Positions 3,051 to 63,702 of a stretch of 64,000 nt of DNA are shown in pieces. Made by a program: the position numbers and the translations under genes. Position 1 is the stretch's first letter. The number at the start of each line of letters is the position of its first letter. This stretch comes from Sipunculus nudus (taxonomy: Eukaryota; Annelida; Sipuncula; Golfingiida; Sipunculidae), in NCBI GenBank assembly GCA_026874595.1, contig CM049313.1, positions 22,874,008 to 22,938,007 on the forward strand. The letters are read 5' to 3'. The notes beneath the pieces are model-generated. The model was given only the letters and a program-made list of their open reading frames with translations, made no database searches and was not told where the DNA came from.

Positions 3051-3213
3051 TCTTACGCAGTTGATATGAATGTGGATTGGATGTTTATCAGCTGTCAACT
3101 GTCATTAACTGCCCTATAGACACGTCATCTGTTAAAGATAGCTGTATACGTGATTCGGGGCTCTTCCTCTGAAATCATTTGGAGAACCACTGGATGCTAT
3201 ATCTACATACATT

Positions 3214-4902
3214 ATGACCAGGAAGAGGTATTCAAACACATTTAAAGTTATTGCCGTGTTGTTCATTCTTCTGGATATATATACGGTGAACGCTTCAGGT
3301 AAAGATAATGTTAAGGAATCAGGTTTCCTTCTTTGGGAGTCTAAAGGAACACTTAATACAAACTCAAGCTCTGCTCTGAATGACAGCTGGCAATCCCCTC
3401 TATTTACAGAGGTAGACATATACATATATGTGACATTTGGAGCACATCTCTGCAACGACTGCATATCTGATCTTTCTCCTCAGTGTTGCCCGGTTTTAGA
3501 GCTCTATTGGGTGGAAGCTTTCGAAATAAATAGGAGCGCCTCATGCGAAGATTTGTTCAGGATTCGATCCAATTTCCCAGGGGGTGAAAACTGGAGTAAC
3601 CGTTTGGATCCAAGTGTAGCAAATACAGGCTGCATTGAAAAATCATCATTTGTGAAATGCAAGAAACGCATATCCATAGGCGCAGGCGCCCCATCTAGAC
3701 TCGCATGGGCTTTTACGTCATGCAGAAGTCGGGAAGGACTTAAATTGAACTATTCTATCGGGTTCTATCACATAAAAAAAGGAAAAAGATGTGAAAACGT
3801 GATACCGCAGCTGGCTGAAATATGTGGCAATTCGAACATAAACCAGATCATGTTGCCTGGTGCGTTAGGCTTTGTAAGTAAAGATGCATTCCTTGAATCA
3901 GTAGGCAGTTTTAAATATGTATTGAAAGGAGTTTTGGAGCAATGTCACCCCGACGCTCTCCACACAGCATGTTTAGCTTTGTTTCCTGGATGTGTGAATG
4001 GATCTAGCTTCTTCCCGTGTCGTGAACAATGTGAGAATATGAAGACATTGTGCACGGCATCTCTGCCATTTAATGACCTCCGGGTGCACTGTCAGATATT
4101 TGCTCCCAAAGATAGTGGTGCTTTGTGTTATTATAATGCTGATGAATGTCCAAATCTTAAACCACCTAATCACGGGATGGTAAATATCACAGCAGTAGAA
4201 CAAAGAAAAATGGCGGTCTACTCGTGTGACACAGGATATTCACTAACATCTGAGTCCACACGTGAATGCGTCCCACCTGGAATTTGGAACGGAACCACAC
4301 CTTTTTGTACCTGGGACAATATATTAATAATATCTGTGTTAGTACCTGTGTGTATACTGGTGGTCCTCTCATGCGTGACGGGTATTACCGTGTTATGGAA
4401 GCGTGGATGTTTCAAGCGAAACTTAAAAAGCATGCACACAGCTCCGTTTATAAATAACCAATACAAGTATGATGTGTTCATCAGTTACAGTTCATGGGAT
4501 GAGGAATTTGTTGAAGTTGAGTTTTTAGGGAAACTGGAAGCGTTGCAAGATCCGCCATTGCGAGTATGTCTTCACGGGAGGGACTTTATCCCGGGAGAGT
4601 ATATCATAAACAACATCATAAAAGCTATTGACGGGAGTGCATCATGTTTCATCATGCTGTCACGTCATTACATACAGAGCCCGTGGTGCACAGAGGAGTT
4701 CAGTATAGCTTACAGTCGCATGATCAATGACAAACTCCCAAAATACTCCTTACAAATAATAATGCTGGATGATGTACCGTTACAGGATATGCCTGTCCAG
4801 TTTAAAGGATTCTGTCAGTCTGTGACATATATTAAACGGACTGATCCAGGTTTCTGGGAAAAAGTGGTCGATGCCGCGAGACTAGTTTGTGGTAACAGAT
4901 AA
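3214..4902 (+). CDS. Single-pass receptor: Frizzled-type CRD, Sushi and TIR domain
   Basis: Uninterrupted 562-residue frame with A at -3 of the ATG. Residues 1-27 form a signal peptide. Residues 55-185 are an unrecognised Cys-containing region. Residues 193-305 are a Frizzled-type CRD with exactly ten cysteines (193, 204, 244, 253, 260, 269, 273, 280, 293, 305), including the FPCREQC signature. Residues 312-365 are one Sushi/CCP module (Cys 312, 338, 352, 365; Trp358). Residues 370-395 span the membrane. Residues 418-551 are a TIR domain: box 1 YDVFISYSSWDE (419-430), box 2 with R456-D457-x-x-P460-G461, W491-C492 with E494/E495, and box 3 F547-W548-E549. About eight N-glycosylation sequons lie outside. 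By family knowledge, TIR domains recruit TIR adaptors such as MyD88, and CRDs bind Wnt or lipid ligands. A cell-surface innate or developmental signalling receptor is inferred; the ligand is unknown. It has no leucine-rich repeats, unlike Toll receptors, and no seven-helix region, unlike Frizzled. No intron interrupts the coding part. Confidence 0.93.
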   Translation: MTRKRYSNTFKVIAVLFILLDIYTVNASGKDNVKESGFLLWESKGTLNTNSSSALNDSWQSPLFTEVDIYIYVTFGAHLCNDCISDLSPQCCPVLELYWVEAFEINRSASCEDLFRIRSNFPGGENWSNRLDPSVANTGCIEKSSFVKCKKRISIGAGAPSRLAWAFTSCRSREGLKLNYSIGFYHIKKGKRCENVIPQLAEICGNSNINQIMLPGALGFVSKDAFLESVGSFKYVLKGVLEQCHPDALHTACLALFPGCVNGSSFFPCREQCENMKTLCTASLPFNDLRVHCQIFAPKDSGALCYYNADECPNLKPPNHGMVNITAVEQRKMAVYSCDTGYSLTSESTRECVPPGIWNGTTPFCTWDNILIISVLVPVCILVVLSCVTGITVLWKRGCFKRNLKSMHTAPFINNQYKYDVFISYSSWDEEFVEVEFLGKLEALQDPPLRVCLHGRDFIPGEYIINNIIKAIDGSASCFIMLSRHYIQSPWCTEEFSIAYSRMINDKLPKYSLQIIMLDDVPLQDMPVQFKGFCQSVTYIKRTDPGFWEKVVDAARLVCGNR

Positions 4903-9515: not shown

Positions 9516-10460
9516 CAAAACGGCATTAGTAACGCCTGAAGGACATTAGTAGTTCATAGTATTGTCGTTTGGTTTAGTGACGGCAGGCTTAACGTTTACG
9601 GGCTTGATACAGAAATTGTTCAACAATACGCCAAATGTGGTATGCTATATAGACGACGTGCTAGTACACATGGAAAGGTGGAACGAATACGTAAGAACGC
9701 TATGTGAAATGCTAGCAAGACTTGAGCGAGCCATCCTTGCAGCTAAACAAGGAAAGACCTTCGTAGAATATCGCAGCCTAGAATGTGTCGGCACCAGATA
9801 TTTAGCAACCAACCCTTCTCTGCTTAAGAAAATCCACAGCGCAGAAAGACCAAAAACCAAGAAAGCCTTGCAAACCTTTCTAGGCCTGACCGGTTACTAC
9901 CGGAAATTCGTGCAGAACTATGCCGAAATAACAGTTCCATTATCTGACATTACGAGGCAAGGGCAGCCTAACAAATAGGATTGGAAAGAGATCCATGAGA
10001 ATGCGTACGGCACACTTAAAGCTAAGCTAGATGATCCCCCATACTGAGAGTACCCGATTTCAATAACGTGATTCTACTTGAAATGCGACGCGTCAGATAT
10101 TGGAGTCGGGAGTATAATTCATGAGGAGCGCGATGGGATGATGCATCTGATAGCTTATGCCAGCAGATAGTTACTGGCTTGAGCAAGGGGATGTATATTC
10201 ATTACTCTACCACTCTGCCATCGAGAGAGAATGTTTGGCAATTGTTTGGGCTGTTCAGAATTTGAGATGTACTTGTCATGTAGACCGTTCACTATACAGA
10301 CAGACCACAGGCCACTCAAGTGTATTAGCAAGTCCAAGTGTGTAAACGTTAATGAGATGGGCTTTAGTGTTACAAGAATTCGGGTTTGATATACAGGCTG
10401 TCTCTGGCAAGCTAAAGCATGGACCAGACTTCTTAAGTAGGTTATCAGAGTGTTGAACAG
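9490..10460 (+). pseudogene. Gypsy reverse transcriptase and RNase H remnant
   Basis: Begins in mid-RT (IPMSEES, with two stops near 9546), then an open 138-residue frame at 9562-9978 with the catalytic YIDD motif (NVVCYIDDVLVH) and the FLGLTGYYRKF thumb/connection motif. After a stop at 9976-9978 the RNase H-like tether follows in shifted frames (CDASDIGVG; IERECLAIVWAVQ; QTDH.PL). It ends near GPDFLSR at about 10440. RT palm motifs before IPM are missing. Confidence 0.88.
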
Positions 10461-21452: not shown

Positions 21453-23598
21453 GAGTTACCCTCCGGTGTAAGGTGCTCAGTGGCCTTCAGACAAGGCCAG
21501 AGCAATATAACACTGAAGAAAAACAACACTGTGAATTCACGACAGACTGTTTCACGGGATGCGACCCGATCCTCCGTTGATTGTTGTTAGAATAAAGCTA
21601 ACAGCATGGTTTGAAAATCCGAGACTTTACGAGATTACGAGATTATGCTTTGTCCCAGCATTGCACGTGTACCCCAACTAATCCTATTGTGCCCCCGAGG
21701 ACAATAGGATCAGTGTCAGTCTTTTACTTGCTCCCGATACGCACAAAGAGCCTATAGAGCTAATCTATACATATTTTGTCTCGTACCATTTTCATCCCCA
21801 CATCTGCATGCGAGAGCTAAGTGTAAAGTGGTCTAGCATTCAACGTGTTCATCTCAGCAGGGTTTAACCCTTCACACCCTCCCCCTTCACCATTTATATT
21901 TCTGTTTCCACCACTGGTTAACACATGTATATACTGTAGATTCAGATAATATCGTGGGCTTAAAATTTCGTGGTTTTTGTACAAAACGCATATCGTGGGG
22001 TATTTGAATTCGTGGAAAGACAAGGAAAACTTTAGGAAATTATGTTTATTAATACCTCCATTTGCGCAAGGAAGACGAGCCCGACGTACACAGGTGGTTC
22101 GGCTTTGATGCTTATCACACGGTGCGCCTGTACCGCGGTCATTCGGGTTAATGTTGAACAAACAAGCTCCGCCCGACCGAGTCTAACAAAGAATTAATCA
22201 GCCGTGACCAACACGTGCCGGCCGATACATCTGCTATTAGTTATAACACCCGATCACACCACATAGACAGAAAATGTAAACCATCACTTAACCAGAGGAA
22301 AAATGAAACGGGACCGTCCACATGAAGGTTTTTAACTTTTTTTTTAATCTAGGCGGTAGTCACATGTGGCGCCTGTAAATCCCGGACGGGGCGGTGAGAC
22401 CAGACACGGTTCGTTCGTCATTCATCATGTCAACTATATTTGGAGATTACAAAGAAATAATTTGCATAATAGTATTCTGCGACGCTTACCTACGCTAAAA
22501 TATATGTACAACTATCGGCAATATTCGGAAGAACTATCGCATGCATATATTATCAATGGCTCACTGTTATGCACGCAACTGTTGTCGCAATATTCGGAAT
22601 AGGTGTTCTTTCGCGTCCCGCGGTAATCGCGGTAATGCAAAGATTTTACACGGCCCTTGTCTTTAAGGACAATAGGTAGCGTAAGTCTCGTTTAATCTCT
22701 ATTGAAAGAAGGTTGAAAAGGCCGGTTCCGAAAAAGCCGTGCCTCGGTAACTGTAGTTACGAACATTGGAACTTGTGTACCGTTCTTGGCGTGTTAAAAC
22801 TACCGCTTTGCGCGACAGAAATGTGGTTCTGTTCTTGAATTTTTCACCCGAAATGTTGAGGAAATGAGGAAATTTTTGGATACGTTTTCAGTTTAAATTA
22901 CACGTTGATATTGTCTTGTTGTAAACAAGGGCCGTGTTTGTTCGATGTTAGGGGAAATAATTTGATTGACAAAAAGAATATTTATAAATCCCATATTTTA
23001 ATAGTTATTTACGAAAAAGCAATTCGGTGCATTTAATAAATGTATTAAAGACAATCACTAAACAGTAGTAAACAATTTTTGTATCTTTATTGAAAATCAG
23101 CCGGCGGTAACAATTATATATATAAAGTCGACCAACAGCTACCGTTAGGATTCCGTATATCCTCTGACCGTGTGATTTTTTGATCGTTGGAATCATGAAT
23201 TCGTGGATTATCTTGATCCACGAAAACCACGAAAATAAAATCCCAACTAATATTTCTGATTCTACAGTATTAAGCAACGTATCTGACATAACATATCATC
23301 TAAACGGTACTTTAAATCTCATTCCCTCTGCAGTGCACTGAATGACCTGGAGGCAGACGAAGACGATGAGGTACCGGAAGCTGACAAAGCACGTCAAACG
23401 CGTCACATCTGGTGCAAGGGCCTGGGAGAAGGATGCGGCGGACTAACCCGCTGTTGTGGTTCGACCATCTGCAACCCTGCAACCAAAACCTGCATGCCCT
23501 GCATCCCGAAAGGTTCTCGTTGTACCACCATCAAAAGAAAATGCTGTTCAGGCAGATGCAACAAGCGCTGGTATCACTGGAACGGAATCTGCGCTTAA
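19771..23598 (+). CDS. Secreted double-knottin (12-cysteine) precursor, 3 exons
   Basis: Exons 19771-19828, 20848-20920 and 23334-23598, joined by introns with GTAAGT/CTAG and GTACGT/GCAG borders. Phases agree and give 131 residues with no internal stop. Residues 1-19 are a signal peptide. Residues about 21-61 are an acidic, helix-prone propeptide. A basic mature region follows possible Arg cleavage sites at 64 and 67. It has cysteines at 71, 78, 84, 85, 90, 97 and at 100, 107, 114, 115, 119, 130. Each set of six fits the inhibitor-cystine-knot spacing C-x6-C-x5/6-CC-x3/4-C-x6/10-C, and the units are separated by only two residues (98-99). The second unit is rich in Lys/Arg and aromatics. Knottins act as antimicrobial peptides, protease inhibitors, channel ligands or hormones; which applies here is unknown. 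The prepropeptide form with charge-balanced acidic pro part resembles antimicrobial precursors. There is no evidence of a venom role. Confidence 0.88.
21404..21447. repeat. (TA)n microsatellite in knottin intron 2
   Basis: Pure TA run. It creates spurious open frames on both strands. Confidence 0.95.
21934..23267. mobile_element. TIR DNA transposon inside knottin intron 2
   Basis: The left end CTGTAGATTCAGATAATATCGTGGG and the right end (reverse complement CTGTAGAATCAGAAATATTAGTTGGG) are inverted copies. The similarity continues through repeated TTCGTGG-type motifs. TA flanks both sides (21932-21933 and 23268-23269), fitting a 2-bp TA target duplication. No transposase frame is seen, so it is non-autonomous. 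It ends 66 bases before exon 3. Confidence 0.8.
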
Positions 23599-32678: not shown

Positions 32679-33930
32679 ATGTCAGGAAGAAAGCGACGTC
32701 CATCACAGAAGTATGCACAAAGCCTCGACACTGCAAAAAGGAGGAGAGTCGGACAAGCCAGGGTACAGAGAGCCGCATTCCTGACGGAACCAAGAACCCA
32801 AACAGGTCCGAGCAGATCTACTAGAACCAGACACACCAGGACGGAGGGCATGTCAAGCAAGTGACGGTGTTTTGAGCCCATAACTGAGTACAGCGCACAC
32901 CGTCACGCCTGCCACACCCAGATCCAGTGTACAACCAACTGCCATGATGACTGAACAATAGATGTTACTTATGGTCGCGTTGATAACCAAGACAGTGATA
33001 GCTGAAGCCAGGGGACAGATAGCCAACTCAGCAGCAGAAGCCCTGCTGCAGGTGGTCACGGAGGAGGCCACCAACAGCATTATCTCAGGTTAGGAGGTCT
33101 CTGCTGCTAACATATGGGTCAGGTGGTAGTTAGGACTAATGAGCAGGAGGGGCTATTGTTAAGGACCATGATAGACGAATTGTTTAAGTTTAATAAGATA
33201 TAGACTGATACATACGTAGATATATGGAGGTTATCAACATATCAAAAGCAGGGCATAGTTGATGGGGGAAAGGTCTCATCATTCGAAGTGATCCCCAAGA
33301 AAGGGAAAGTAACAAAATCCTTTACTGAAGGGGAGAAGGCTTTTCAGCAATACTTCGCTATCTACTGCCAGAAGCCAACCCTTGCTCTTCAGGCCTCTAA
33401 CTTACTACGTTTACTTATATAGATACAGTTAGGAAAATCAGGACCGGGGGGGGGGGGGGGGGGCTGGCTCACATATGATGCAAATTTCAGGGAGTTGAAC
33501 GATAGAAGTCAGGTAGACTCTGGGAAGCCAGATATCCAGATTTCTGGATGGATGCCATGTCTAGTACCATACACTCCCCAGTAATAGAACAAAATCTAGC
33601 TCCAGGCTTTTTTGTTCGAAAGAAAAAGTATGCTTCAAACAAAACAAGGGTAAGACTGTAGCCCAGCAACATGCACATACACAAATGCTGACAACGCAGC
33701 TGATACAACACAGCGTATAATGCATGCAACAAGTCAGTCAAAGAAATGCAAATGGTCTGGCACAAGAACAAGCTACCCACTCCCAGCAATCCAAATAGGC
33801 TTCAGGCATTCTTAGAGAAATCAGGGTATCCAAAAGATTCAGTAGACTATTTGATGGATGGTTTTAATAAAGGTTTCTCAGTGGATTTTATGGGAATACG
33901 CAAACCCCGTTAGTAAAATAAAATCTGCCC
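32679..33930 (+). pseudogene. DIRS gag-like region and RT N-terminus
   Basis: A basic N-terminus from the ATG at 32679 (SGRKRRPSQKY) is followed in shifted frames by a capsid-like segment (VSSFEVIPKKGKVTKSFTEG at about 33271-33330, then AFQQYFAIYCQK) and, after an 18-base G run at 33446-33463 that reads as glycine, WLTYDANFRELND. RT N-terminal-like sequence (FLEKSGYPKDSVDYLMDGF) follows at about 33808. All parts contain stops. Confidence 0.65.
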
Positions 33931-33960
33931 CTAAATGGCTCTTGGCCATCCCAATGGAGG

Positions 33961-34230
33961 AATTACAATATTTTGGTTTGGGAATTGCTACCTATTGTCC
34001 TGGCTTTAAGAGTTTGGGGTCATGAACTACACAATAAAAGGATCATAGTGCATACAGATACCATGGCATTAGTGCATATTATAAACAAGCAGAGTTCCAA
34101 AAACAAACACAACATGATCCTAATTAGGGCTTTAGTCAGAACAAATTTAAAATATAATATTCAGATTAAATCTAAACACATCCCAGGTGCTGAGAATAAG
34201 CTTGCTGATGCCCTTTCTCGTCTGCAGGAG
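33961..34230 (+). pseudogene. DIRS RNase H domain
   Basis: Open 114-residue frame from 33973. It shows WELLPIVLALRVWG, HTDTMALVHIINKQ with the RNase H Asp, and IPGAENKLADALSRL, the conserved end of retroelement RNase H. Confidence 0.85.
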
Positions 34231-34309
34231 GCTCGCTTTAAGACTCTGGCTTCATGGGCAGACAAATCCCAAGTCCAACACCCAGCACTACCGGTACAGA
34301 TAGATTATT

Positions 34310-35192
34310 TCAGTTAAGACGCAATCTTATAAGAGAAAAAATTTCACCATCAACCCAAAATGCATATAAAGGTGTTTGGGGTCAGCTGAGGCAGTTCTAC
34401 ACTACACATAATCATCCAGAATGCGCATCAGTTCCTCTATCCCCAACGCTAGTCTTCCTTTTTCTAACTTCAATATTTGCAGATGGTTGTTCGGGCACGA
34501 CACTGGCAACTTCAGCTTCAGCACTGTCATATGTCCACAAAATCAGGGGTATACAGGACCTAACTGTCTAACAAACCGTTAAAAGGCTGTTGCAGGCAGC
34601 TCTTAAATAAACCCCACCAGTTGACTCCCGCTAGCCAATAACAAAACGACTGTTAAACTATTGAACAACCTAAAATACACAACGATGTCTCAATACACCA
34701 GATGCATGTTCAAGTCTTTGTACTTGGTATGTTTTCATGGTTTTTTAGGGTATGCGAACTCATCCCTGTGGTGAGGTGGGAAAGCAATAAAGTAATTCAG
34801 TTGAACCAAGTGGCTTTACAAAAAAATGCTGTTCCTGGTACATCTCATGTTGTTAAGCTCAGGTCGCATCTAGCCTCCCATTGCCCAGTTAAAAGGCTGT
34901 GGGAATTTATTGAACTGAGAGGGTCAAGCCCTGGGCCACTTTTCGGGCTCAAATTGTTTGACCAGGGCAAGCTTTAATGATCAACTGGAGAAAAATTTAT
35001 TCTTTTGTGATCTCAACCCTGACAGGTTCAAAGGGCACAGCTTCAGGATAGGAGCAGCAACAGAAGCAGCAGAGTGTGGCAAAACTGATGCTGCTGAAAT
35101 CAGGTTTATGGGCAGAAGGAACTTTGAGAAAATACACCACGTTGCATACGTTACATTAATGACCATGTCAGACATGGCGCCACAGGCAATAT
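34310..35192 (+). pseudogene. DIRS tyrosine recombinase
   Basis: The SAM-like N-terminal part (STQNAYKGVWGQLRQFY; SASALSYVHKIRG) is followed, after stops at about 34570-34700, by the catalytic part. FFRVCELIPV near 34750 corresponds to the first-Arg region with Arg-Val-Gly-Glu altered to RVCE. GHSFRIGAAT at 35035-35064 gives the H-x-x-R motif, and HHVAYVT near 35140 supplies the likely nucleophile Tyr. Frameshifts inactivate it. Confidence 0.82.
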
Positions 35193-36603: not shown

Positions 36604-37331
36604 AATCAGGTTACATGGACCATGTTCGCATAGTGTTGATAATCAGGTTACATGGACCATGTTCGCATACAGTGCTGATGAACATGTTCGCATACACTGC
36701 TGATAATCAGGTTACATGAACCATGTTCGCATACACTGCTGATAATCAGGTTACATGAACCATGTTCGCATACACTGCTGATAATCAGGTTACATGAACC
36801 ATGTTCGCATACAGTGCTGATAATCAAGTTACATGAACCATGTTCGCATACAGTGTTGATAATCAGGTTACATGAACCATGTTCGCATACACTGCTGATA
36901 ATCAGGTTACATGAACCATGTTTGTATACAGTGCTGATAATCAGGTTACATGAACCATGTTCGCATACACTGCTGATAATCAGGTTACATGAACCATGTT
37001 CGCATACAGTGCTGATAATCAGGTTGCATGAACCATGTTTGTATACACTGCTGATAATCAGATTACATGAACCATGTTTGTATACAGTGCTGATAATCAG
37101 GTTACATGAACTATGTTCGTATTCAGTGCTGATAATCAGGTTACATGAACCATGTTCGCAGACACTGCTGATAATCAGGTTACATGAACCATGTTCGCAT
37201 ACACTGCTGATAATCAGGTTACATGAACCATGTTCGCATACAGTGCTGATAATCAGGTTACATGAACCATGTTCGTATTCAGTGCTGATAATCAGGTTAC
37301 ATGAACAATGTTTGCATACAGTGTTGATAAC
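36604..37331. repeat. 39-bp minisatellite, about 18 units
   Basis: The unit reads ATAATCAGGTTACATGAACC then ATGTTCGCATACACTGCTG. Sixteen well-preserved units follow two degenerate ones at the left end. Variants cluster at a few positions (TTCGCATAC versus TTTGTATAC or TTCGTATTC; CACTGC versus CAGTGC). Because 39 is divisible by three, one frame stays open on each strand, giving long repetitive peptides that are not evidence of a gene. Each unit contains GAAC-CAT-GTTC, an inverted repeat. Confidence 0.97.
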
Positions 37332-44864: not shown

Positions 44865-46990
44865 CTTGGAAAATATATATTCCACGATGTTTGCTATAGA
44901 AAATAAACCGCAGTCCCCACTGCCTATTTTTTGTTGTTGTCTAGAAAACTGTATTCTTAGGCTATTTGTAAGCTCCCCTGTATAGCAGGACTATCTAAAA
45001 TATATGTTTCACTTTTCTCCTTTATTACAGCAACTCAGTGTTTGGTGCCAGTAAATAAAATATGTATGTTATTGTCATCGCCAACTTGTGTGAATCTAAA
45101 ATAGTAACCCCATTTCCCAGTGTGTTGATTCTTCACTGGCAATTTTAATGTATCCTGGAGGTCTATGTCATGTAGAGTTTTCTTGAATTGATTTTTCATT
45201 ATCTGACTGGCTGCCTGCATGTGGTCGTTTTCTATATATTCATTATTACATATAATTTTCTTATGTTGCAATGTCAAATTTAAATGATACAGCCATGTAT
45301 TTCCAGCAGGTCTGAGGCAAAGTTTTTAGATGGTTTTTCTTCTTGACTTTCTGTTTTAGTTAAATCGAGTGCTGAAAAATGACTTTTGACATTATCTGTA
45401 ATTTAGCAACTATTTTGAGTGCCAGTGACTTTTTTTCTTTGCATTCAGCTTGTGAGTGTTTGTTTGATTGTGAGTGTACGGCACAGCATTTTTGTTGGAT
45501 GATTGTCTGATGGTGATGGAAGAGTGTCCAAATCATTTGGAATATTCATTTGTTCATTCCCAAATGTGTATGTGTTGAAGTGTGTGTTTTTAATGTAGTC
45601 AATCTTTTTGAAGTACTTTTGAAGACCGGTGATATTGCACCATCAAGCAAACAAGTGTTTTCATCCTCTTTGACTTTACCATTCTCATGCTCGAATCTCA
45701 GTTTTTTTCTTAACTTTTAAGTTTAGTTGTTTTATGGTTTTGTGCTTGTTTGATTTGGAACATTTCAAAATTGGATCTAGGTGTTTCAGTGTCATTATTG
45801 TTCATTACTTTTGCTGGTGACGGAAGGATGTCAAGATCCTGACTGTGTGTGCTGACTTGTGATGCAATGAATTTTTGTTCTGAGTCTGGCGTGGTTTGTG
45901 CTACAGGGTCTGAAATGCATTTTATTTCCGGGTTCAAAGTGTTTTGTGCAATCGTCCAGATGGGGATAATGTTGCATTGAGAAGGATGGAGGCTTCACAA
46001 TCTGGCGCAAAATCTACAATAAAATCGCCTGGCCCTGGCTACTTGCAACCTGGACGCTTATCTTTCTTTGAACGCTGCCTCTTTGAAAGGATGGATTGTT
46101 TAGCTGCCAAGATGTGGCAGCATGTAGCCTCGGCCTTACATTGGCACTCTTCCTTGGGGAAGAGTGTCACAGCATAAGTCTTTTTATCCTTAACCACAAA
46201 AGCATTGAAATTTGGAATGAACTCAATTTTGTTGTTGTTGATCAGATCAACTGCTTTATCAACTTCTGTGTTTCCATGTCTCAACCTGTTGCACATTTTC
46301 TATAAATCATCTACTGAATTTGGACTTGTAACAAAATTATTAATATTTTGTGTTGCTAGCTCTTTTGTCTCTTCTTGGCCCACTGTGTTCTCTATCAGAT
46401 CGCCAGATTTAAGAATCCTTGCTATGTATCTACCTGCCTTAGTTCAAATTGACCAAAGTCAAATGTGCCTCTTGTAATCTCATTTATATAATACGATTGA
46501 AGAGAGTAAGGGTATCCTTAATTACTTCTTTCCACTCCATCAGTCTTTTCAACACTGTATTCAGGGATTCTACTGCGTTGTTGGTAACTTCTGTGAATGG
46601 GCTGAATATTTAAATTGTTTTAATATCTACTTTCCAGCATGGTTCAATGTCATCTTTCAAATGATTAATAAAATAAGTTTTAATTGGTTGGCTGCAATAG
46701 CTGGTAACACGCTTTTTCTGCAAGGAATTCTGTCTCAGATTCTGAGCTCATCAACTGTGTCACCTGATCTTGATGTACTCTAATTTCCTCTTTCTTAATG
46801 CTGTTTTGTTTATGCAGCCTGTGCTTAATGTCATTCTTAATATGATTCCAACAGTATATTAATTTTATATTTGGAAAAACATTTGTAATTGCACTTGGGA
46901 ACCCTGGCTCTCTGTCTGTAATCAAGGAAATGTTAGATAGTGCTAAATTGAGCCTTTCTTTAAAATACATGCAAGAATAAGACTTTTAAT
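44865..46990 (-). pseudogene. MULE-type transposase with SWIM finger and Ulp1/SENP-like protease
   Basis: Read on the minus strand from 46990 downwards. The MULE DDE region is ITDREPGFPSAI, then YCWNHIKNDIKHRL (46970-46680), then in other frames FTEVTNNAVESLNTVLKRLM and RGTFDFGQFEL. A SWIM zinc finger follows at 46296-46039 (C-x-C-x6-C-H in CQCKAEATCCHILAA). After a low-complexity spacer (45937-45710), a C48-like domain begins near 45277 (NNEYIENDHMQAASQIMKNQF), has the His of FTGTKH next to a stop where Trp is expected (about 45036), a LDS Asp in another frame, and SGDCGLF with the catalytic Cys codon at 44912-44910. Stops and frameshifts throughout. MULEs carrying Ulp1 proteases are known in plants (KI-MULEs); fusion of transposase, SWIM and protease in one animal element is inferred from collinearity. 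Confidence 0.82.
44870..45277 (-). pseudogene. Ulp1/SENP-like C48 protease domain
   Basis: C48 peptidases use a His-Asp-Gln-Cys active site to cleave SUMO-like tags. All four positions can be found here across frames: the His before the TGA at about 45036, an Asp in YILDSP, a Gln about nine residues before the Cys, and the Cys of DCGLF. The TGA replaces the usual Trp after the His, a one-base change. Confidence 0.75.
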
Positions 46991-60510: not shown

Positions 60511-61550
60511 ATGGCCCTGAGGGAAGAAGTACAGGCTCCGCTTCATGATGATTCACATCTGGATGAGGATCAGGTTGACATGCTGAGGGCTGCAGCATGT
60601 CTTCTTGTTGCTGCTGCGATTAAGAAAGCTAAAACTAGTGATAGGAGGCTTAAAAAAGCAAGGAAAAGAAACAGTGTGGGTGAGAGAATGGCCCTTGACG
60701 AGACAAAAGTATGGCATGTATGAGAAGCTAATGGAGCAACTCAGAGACGGGGATGCCACATAATTCCGGAACTTTGTCAGAATGGATCCAGATATGTTCA
60801 ACCAGATGGTCGACGATCTGACTCATATGCTTCAGAAAAAAAACCGAAAACTGCAGGCAGCCACTATCACCTGGACTCAAACTGGCCATCACTTTAAGAT
60901 ATCTTGCCACGGGGGACTCTTACAAGTCGCTGTCCTATGGGTTCCGGGTTGCCCCCAACACCATCGTTAGTGTTGTGAAAGAGGTGTGCCAAGCAATCTA
61001 CGAGTACTACCACGAGACAGCCTTCACGTGTCCAACAACAGAAGAGGAGTGGAGAGTGGTAGCCAAGGTTAATTTCAGACACATGAAACTTCCTTCACTG
61101 TTGTGGCTGCATAGATGGCAAACATGTAAGGATACAAGCTCCTCCTCGCTCTGGCAGTTTTTACTACAACTACAAAAACTACTACTCCATCATCATGCTG
61201 GCCTTGGTAGATGCCAACTATAATTTATGTTTGTGGATGTTGGTGCCTATGGTGGTGATTCTGATTCGGGAATCTTCAGGGAGTGTGGACTGTATCATGC
61301 CATGGAGCAGGACAAAGCTGGTCTGCCACCAAGTGAGCCCCTGCCAGGTGGTGACACTAACATCCCCTACTTTATTGTTGGGGATGATGCATTTGCCTTG
61401 AGAGGCTGGATGATGAATCCACACTCCAGGACAAACATGACCACAGCAGAGCGCATCTTCAATTATAGGTTGTCCAGGCTCCGTAGGATTGTGGAGAATG
61501 CTTTTGGCATATTAGCAAACAGGTATGTACAATCATATTTATACAATTAA
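60511..61550 (+). pseudogene. PIF/Harbinger transposase, lightly broken
   Basis: Starts at the ATG at 60511 (ALREEVQAPLHDDSHLDEDQ) with a basic stretch, then in successive frames: VRMDPDMFNQMVDDLTHML (60780), LKLAITLRYLATGDSYKSL (60885), PNTIVSVVKEVCQAIYEYY, an IDGKHV-like region disrupted near 61110, RSGSFYYNYKNYYSIIMLAL, FVDVGAYGGDSDSGIF (61228; a catalytic Asp) and RIVENAFGILANR (about 61480, the final Glu). Only a handful of indels or stops break it, so inactivation is fairly recent. GTATGT after ILANR at about 61530 could be a donor for a further exon. Confidence 0.9.
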
Positions 61551-63431: not shown

Positions 63432-63702
63432 TTTTTTTTTATTTTTTAATGCGTTAACCAGGCCCGATGACTACTGCACCTGCGGGCCCTGGGTTGGTAA
63501 TCATACCACCGGGGACCCCGAAAGGCGCACTCGTTTGTGAGTGAAACACGGCCGTTGGGCACGACCTTCACATTAAGCCTGCAGAGCGCTCACTCTGGGT
63601 GCGGGCCGACCGTGAAAAACCTCACCGCCTCGGCTGAGATTCGAACTCACGGTCTCCCGGCTTTGAGTCCTGCGCTCTACCCCTGAGCCACAGAAGCCGG
63701 TT
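63432..63702 (-). mobile_element. tRNA-derived SINE with 14-bp target duplications
   Basis: AAAACGTATTTGTT occurs exactly at 63418-63431 and 63703-63716, bracketing the element. On the minus strand it begins with a tRNA-like head (box A TGGCTCAGGGG; box B AGTTCGAATCT) and ends in an A-rich tail next to the left duplication. It shares its body with the SINE at 12860. Perfect duplications indicate a young insertion by non-LTR machinery. Confidence 0.94.

Follow-up and report, generated by a model that had tools for sequence, protein, structure and literature searches.

A candidate single-pass receptor combining a Frizzled-type cysteine-rich domain, a Sushi module, and a TIR domain in one open frame of Sipunculus nudus

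The locus lies at 3214..4902 on the forward strand of the window, by which we mean the whole 64,000-nucleotide stretch of Sipunculus nudus DNA that was analyzed. It consists of one open frame, running from an ATG at 3214 to a stop codon at 4900-4902, with 562 codons for a protein of 562 amino acids, in a single exon as read. An in-frame stop is located upstream of the ATG, at 3151, and the first AATAAA or ATTAAA appears about 600 bases downstream of the receptor stop. An earlier note on this DNA had described the frame as intact, and indeed no internal stop interrupts it. It is the longest stop-to-stop frame of the window (582 codons), followed by two frames of 301 and 257 codons, both within a tandem array. 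In 60 first-order Markov simulations of the 64-kb window, the longest frame averaged 150 codons and reached 193 at most. The length of the receptor frame is therefore far above simulated chance.

The composition of the protein is illustrated by the Pfam scan. Against curated cut-offs of 21.3 bits for TIR, 28 for TIR_2, 32.1 for Fz, and 20.7 for Sushi, the whole protein scores 51.8, 50, 32.9, and 28.5 bits, respectively. Scored as separate fragments, Fz (36.8 bits), Sushi (34.1 bits), and TIR (55.1 bits) are each higher than on the whole protein. The profile check for these three families, which the earlier note had proposed, placed all of them above the curated cut-offs, and its reading of a Frizzled-type cysteine-rich domain (CRD), a Sushi module, a membrane helix, and a TIR domain within one exon stands. 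Its count of the ectodomain cysteines does not. The ectodomain contains 22 cysteines rather than 14, and the eight additional ones, at residues 80-170, precede the CRD.

The protein begins with a hydrophobic leader at residues 1-28 (3214..3297, forward strand), a probable signal peptide with a hydropathy peak of 1.74 at residues 9-28. A single membrane helix is placed at residues 369-391 (4318..4386, forward strand). In a simple hydropathy scan with a 19-residue window and a threshold mean of 1.6, only two regions reach 1.6, namely the leader (7-28) and the segment 363-397, whose peak is 3.17. The membrane helix previously suggested is thus the one such segment besides the leader. It is followed by the basic residues KRGCFKR. 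All nine NxS/T sequons of the protein are located N-terminal to the helix (residues 26-359), and the cytoplasmic part contains none. The placement of the helix and the sequons therefore fits a topology in which the N-terminal part would be extracellular and the TIR domain cytoplasmic.

The first part of the predicted ectodomain is an eight-cysteine module at residues ~60-188, with limits set by eye (3391..3777, forward strand). Its cysteines are at positions 80, 83, 91, 92, 111, 140, 149, and 170. No Pfam family scores above its cut-off in this module, and no PDB match appears at E 10. By eye, the cysteine order in residues 60-188 (CC, C, C, C, C, then GL.L.Y) resembles that of the N-terminal domain of TMEM145. 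A GOLD domain of the TMEM145/GOST type was considered for these residues, but the comparisons lend it no support, and the module is left unassigned. It has no TMEM145_N match in Pfam, whereas the TMEM145 segment used for comparison scores 172.6 bits as TMEM145_N. A BLASTP comparison of the module with that segment gave E 0.20. Of 2000 shuffled sequences, 316 reached the local alignment score, and reversing the sequence gave the same score. The GOST family takes in the Wnt chaperone Wntless (PMC9711517).

The Frizzled CRD follows at residues 193-305 (3790..4128, forward strand), assigned from the Pfam Fz profile and an alignment with Frizzled-7. Its ten cysteines occupy positions 193, 204, 244, 253, 260, 269, 273, 280, 293, and 305. 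The whole-protein Fz score is just 0.8 bits above the Pfam cut-off, and Frizzled proteins are absent among the best 60 of the 88 PDB matches to the whole receptor. The CRD call therefore also leans on a PDB search with the CRD segment alone. In that search, Frizzleds account for 16 of the 19 sequences listed, the other three having E values of at least 0.07, and the best match is the CRD of Frizzled-7 (E 8e-5). The two domains share 33 identical residues among 101 aligned. The gaps between cysteines 2-10 are 39, 8, 6, 8, 3, 6, 12, and 11 residues in the receptor, compared with 36, 8, 6, 9, 3, 6, 16, and 11 in Frizzled-7. The claim that ten CRD cysteines are arranged in Frizzled order is borne out by cysteines 2-10, which match in 9 of 9 positions; cysteine 1 (residue 193), 10 residues from cysteine 2, lies outside the alignment. 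Single-sequence structure prediction reached a pLDDT of 40 for the CRD alone and of 34 for the whole receptor, too low for a usable model in either case. The CRD model is poor, and a fold search with it, which returned no PDB match at E 0.001, is uninformative either way.

Relative to Frizzled-7, the receptor CRD contains a three-residue insertion just before cysteine 3. In Frizzled-8 bound to Wnt, the region before cysteine 3 touches the lipid, and we take this segment to be the site of Frizzled's lipid-groove helix. Judging from the alignment, the insertion may mean that Wnt-type lipid binding by the CRD has been lost.

Between the CRD and the membrane lies the Sushi (CCP/SCR) module at residues 312-365 (4147..4308, forward strand). 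The four cysteines attributed to it are present at positions 312, 338, 352, and 365, separated by gaps of 25, 13, and 12 residues, and the module is recognized by the Pfam Sushi profile both within the whole protein and as a fragment. Its PDB matches are complement-receptor and complement-protein chains, among them 2q7z (E 3.4e-14) and the short chain 1ppq (E 0.0023). The low E value for 2q7z, a chain of 1931 residues, is likely helped by the many modules it contains.

The cytoplasmic part carries the TIR domain at residues 418-562 (4465..4899, forward strand). As had been proposed, all three boxes and the BB loop can be located: box 1 starts at residue 419 (YDVFISYS), box 2 with the BB loop at 456 (RDFIPG), and box 3 at 547 (FWEKV, containing FW). 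The nearest PDB matches to the TIR domain, among the best 60 of 88, are TLR2 (E 1.5e-18), TLR1, and TLR6. We aligned the domain with seven proteins hand-picked from the 12 returned by the protein searches. The alignment contains 11 invariant columns, including R-D-F-I-P-G of the BB loop, shared by the receptor and all seven proteins. One returned protein with several TIR stretches (P0011), in which no RDFIPG was seen, was left out of the alignment. The BB loop is important for MyD88 recruitment in TLRs, and the RDFIPG motif of the receptor would be consistent with such recruitment. Bacterial TIR families were also considered and rejected; the TIR region scores 19.3 bits in NCBIfam, where the cut-off is 600, and has a weak PADLOC match, both of which we attribute to general TIR similarity.

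Relatives were sought in protein databases by a search that required shared five-residue words and was limited in length, so that the absence of a match counts weakly. With the full-length receptor as a query, 10 proteins among 4944 candidates were found at E 0.001, with a coverage of 16-34% of the query. All 10 contain the TIR family and none the Frizzled family. The top match is an LRR-TIR protein of the chiton Liolophura (P0002). The TIR region (366-562) gave three matches at E 0.001 among 181 candidates, the best being an LRR-TIR protein of Mytilus galloprovincialis (P0012) with 34% identity. Both of these top matches are molluscan, which taken alone would make a mollusc host plausible. 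The remaining protein matches are named for fish, snakes, an insect (Henosepilachna), and Antedon. A Pfam scan of five comparison proteins detected LRR in the three LRR-TIR ones (P0002, P0004, and P0012). The ectodomain (residues 25-400) gave no match at E 0.001 among 2016 candidates. Relatives that combine a Frizzled CRD, a Sushi module, and a TIR domain were thus not returned by the full-length, ectodomain, or TIR-region searches, whose sensitivity is limited. With no homologue of equal architecture among the matches of these searches, there is no sign that selection keeps this arrangement.

The architecture can be compared with several known systems. With Toll-like receptors (LRR-TM-TIR), the receptor shares a type I topology, a single membrane helix, and a TLR-type cytoplasmic TIR domain. 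It differs from them in carrying the CRD, the Sushi module, and the eight-cysteine module instead of leucine-rich repeats; no LRR family is detected in it by Pfam at E 1. With Frizzled receptors, it has in common a CRD in the ectodomain whose cysteines follow the Frizzled pattern. Whereas Frizzleds have seven helices, the receptor has one helix followed by a TIR domain and lacks the KTxxxW motif, which marks the Dishevelled-binding tail of Frizzled. The Frizzled membrane family is not found in it by Pfam at E 1. A CRD on a single-pass protein is known from ROR and MuSK. The receptor resembles these two in that respect and differs in that a TIR domain replaces the tyrosine kinase, with no kinase, Ig, or Kringle family detected by Pfam at E 1.

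TIR domains joined to domains other than LRRs have already been reported from several invertebrates. Sponge TLR-like receptors combine extracellular immunoglobulin domains with TIR (PMC8242945), IG-TIR and EGF-TIR proteins are described in oyster (PMC4346834), and two EGF-TIR genes of Aplysia are grouped with adaptors (PMC9334734). The present receptor is similar to all of these in joining TIR to a non-LRR domain. The published proteins use other partner domains, and in the sections of these sources that bear on them, an extracellular placement is stated for the sponge proteins only. The oyster and Aplysia EGF-TIR proteins, which appear among adaptors or without a stated topology, need not be surface receptors. 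Unlike the IL-1 receptor, IG-TIR, and EGF-TIR proteins, the receptor contains no Ig or EGF family detectable by Pfam at E 1. Further TIR combinations include novel TIR genes of actiniarians, in a study that also gives 381 unique TIR architectures in a public domain database (PMC5094078), 28 TIR combinations in amphioxus, of which 20 are amphioxus-specific (PMC2575513), the ecTIR-DC class of placozoans and a clam (PMC6321704, PMC6836662), and the TIR-DC proteins mentioned by a review on the TLRs of molluscs (PMC12521104). The legend of the sponge receptor figure lists FZ among the receptor domains, with no indication of the proteins to which it belongs, and the corresponding section text places no FZ with TIR (PMC8242945). 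In the literature searched, a Frizzled-TIR pair is not named; the lists of TIR partners sit in figures and supplements, where the pair may stand. The suggestion that no such receptor class has been described is therefore not contradicted by the literature or the protein searches, both of which are limited in reach. Since non-LRR TIR proteins are already in print, the Frizzled CRD receptor represents a variation on a known theme. It is a further type within this published group, built with a different ectodomain.

We propose that the gene encodes a type I single-pass surface receptor of the innate type, in which a CRD ectodomain replaces the LRRs and a ligand drives TIR signaling through a MyD88-type adaptor, and we assign this reading a probability of roughly 0.6. 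It builds on features that are established at the level of sequence, namely the open frame, the CRD and Sushi module of the ectodomain, the single membrane helix, and a TIR domain of the TLR type. That Fz and Sushi precede the one membrane helix and TIR follows it counts in its favor. In the mechanism we envisage, the ectodomain, with the CRD foremost, would bind either a ligand that is acylated or lipidic, or a secreted protein with affinity for CRDs. Ligand binding would pair two receptor chains and bring their TIR domains together. Once paired, the TIR domains could use the RDFIPG loop to recruit a MyD88-type adaptor, which would switch on an NF-kB-type response. The Sushi module would most likely serve as a near-membrane stalk or a co-binding site. 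A narrower version, in which the receptor forms an undescribed class that detects an acylated, secreted ligand, either Wnt-like or a microbial lipid, by its Frizzled CRD and signals directly through TIR to MyD88/NF-kB, appears doubtful to us.

The nature of the ligand is the point on which an alternative deserves the most weight. The CRD could be a protein-binding or dimerizing module rather than a Wnt or lipid receptor, the ligand then being a protein, or a pathogen surface contacted through the eight-cysteine module and the Sushi module, while the CRD would do no more than pair the chains. This is a real possibility, which we nevertheless regard as falling somewhat short of even odds. It is in line with a CRD that has kept its cysteines, yet shows limited identity to Frizzled-7 and carries the insertion before cysteine 3, and CRDs also occur on the single-pass ROR and MuSK. 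It is less probable, though still conceivable, that the TIR domain pairs with true TLRs and damps or redirects their signaling, so that the protein acts as a regulatory or decoy receptor. The odd architecture would suit such a role, and it has been proposed that TIR-only MyD88-like proteins of oyster compete with MyD88 (PMC4346834). We consider this rather improbable for a protein whose RDFIPG loop and box 3 are intact, as in an active receptor.

Two further explanations concern the gene itself. It may have formed recently or be in decay, and so be out of use, as a lineage-specific domain fusion whose frame is still open. The protein searches, in which no relative of equal architecture was found, would agree with this, as would the presence of transposon remnants in the window and the lack of a second copy within it (besides the gene, tblastn returned two matches, which have E values above 4 and are put down to chance). 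Against it stand the stop-free codons of the entire frame, three families above their cut-offs, and a leader and one membrane helix where they are expected, and we judge disuse unlikely. The idea that the ectodomain and the TIR domain come from separate loci misjoined during assembly is the least credible of all, because a random join would rarely be in frame with one membrane helix between the two halves; the window also contains no N. The reading as an innate-type surface receptor is therefore the one we prefer.

If the receptor is expressed and functional, a CRD, a domain best known for Wnt reception, would be coupled to TIR signaling within one chain. The CRD ectodomain would then be an addition to the invertebrate TIR repertoire, apparently assembled by domain shuffling. 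Should the ligand prove to be acylated, the receptor would link a developmental ligand-recognition module directly to innate immunity. An expressed and functional receptor would also provide a simple way to ask if a Toll-type response that does not involve leucine-rich repeats can be driven by lipidated ligands.

Several other features were observed elsewhere in the window. Of the 36 listed frames, 10 were scanned for protein families. Transposon remnants were found at 9553-9975, 33922-34568, 46683-46985 (reverse strand), and 60822-61547, with matches to reverse transcriptase, to RNase H together with a SAM-like integrase below threshold, to a sub-threshold MULE, and to a DDE_Tnp_4 transposase. 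The frames at 34657, 40959, and 55240 gave no matches in the same family scan. The tandem array mentioned above, at 36678-37330, is built from a 39-bp unit repeated about 17 times, with 93% matches. As the unit length is divisible by 3, the array is open on both strands, and its long frames are probably not genes. A stop-to-stop frame of 103 amino acids at 23287-23595 (forward strand) ends in a C-terminal knottin-like, cysteine-rich stretch with CC pairs. It matches the Pfam Conotoxin family below the cut-off (15.5 versus 25.1 bits) and might represent one exon of a gene for a small, secreted peptide rich in cysteines. Finally, a segment at 63626-63697 (reverse strand), which received no ARAGORN call, gives a borderline Rfam tRNA match (30.5 bits against a gathering threshold of 29) and is perhaps a tRNA-derived SINE.
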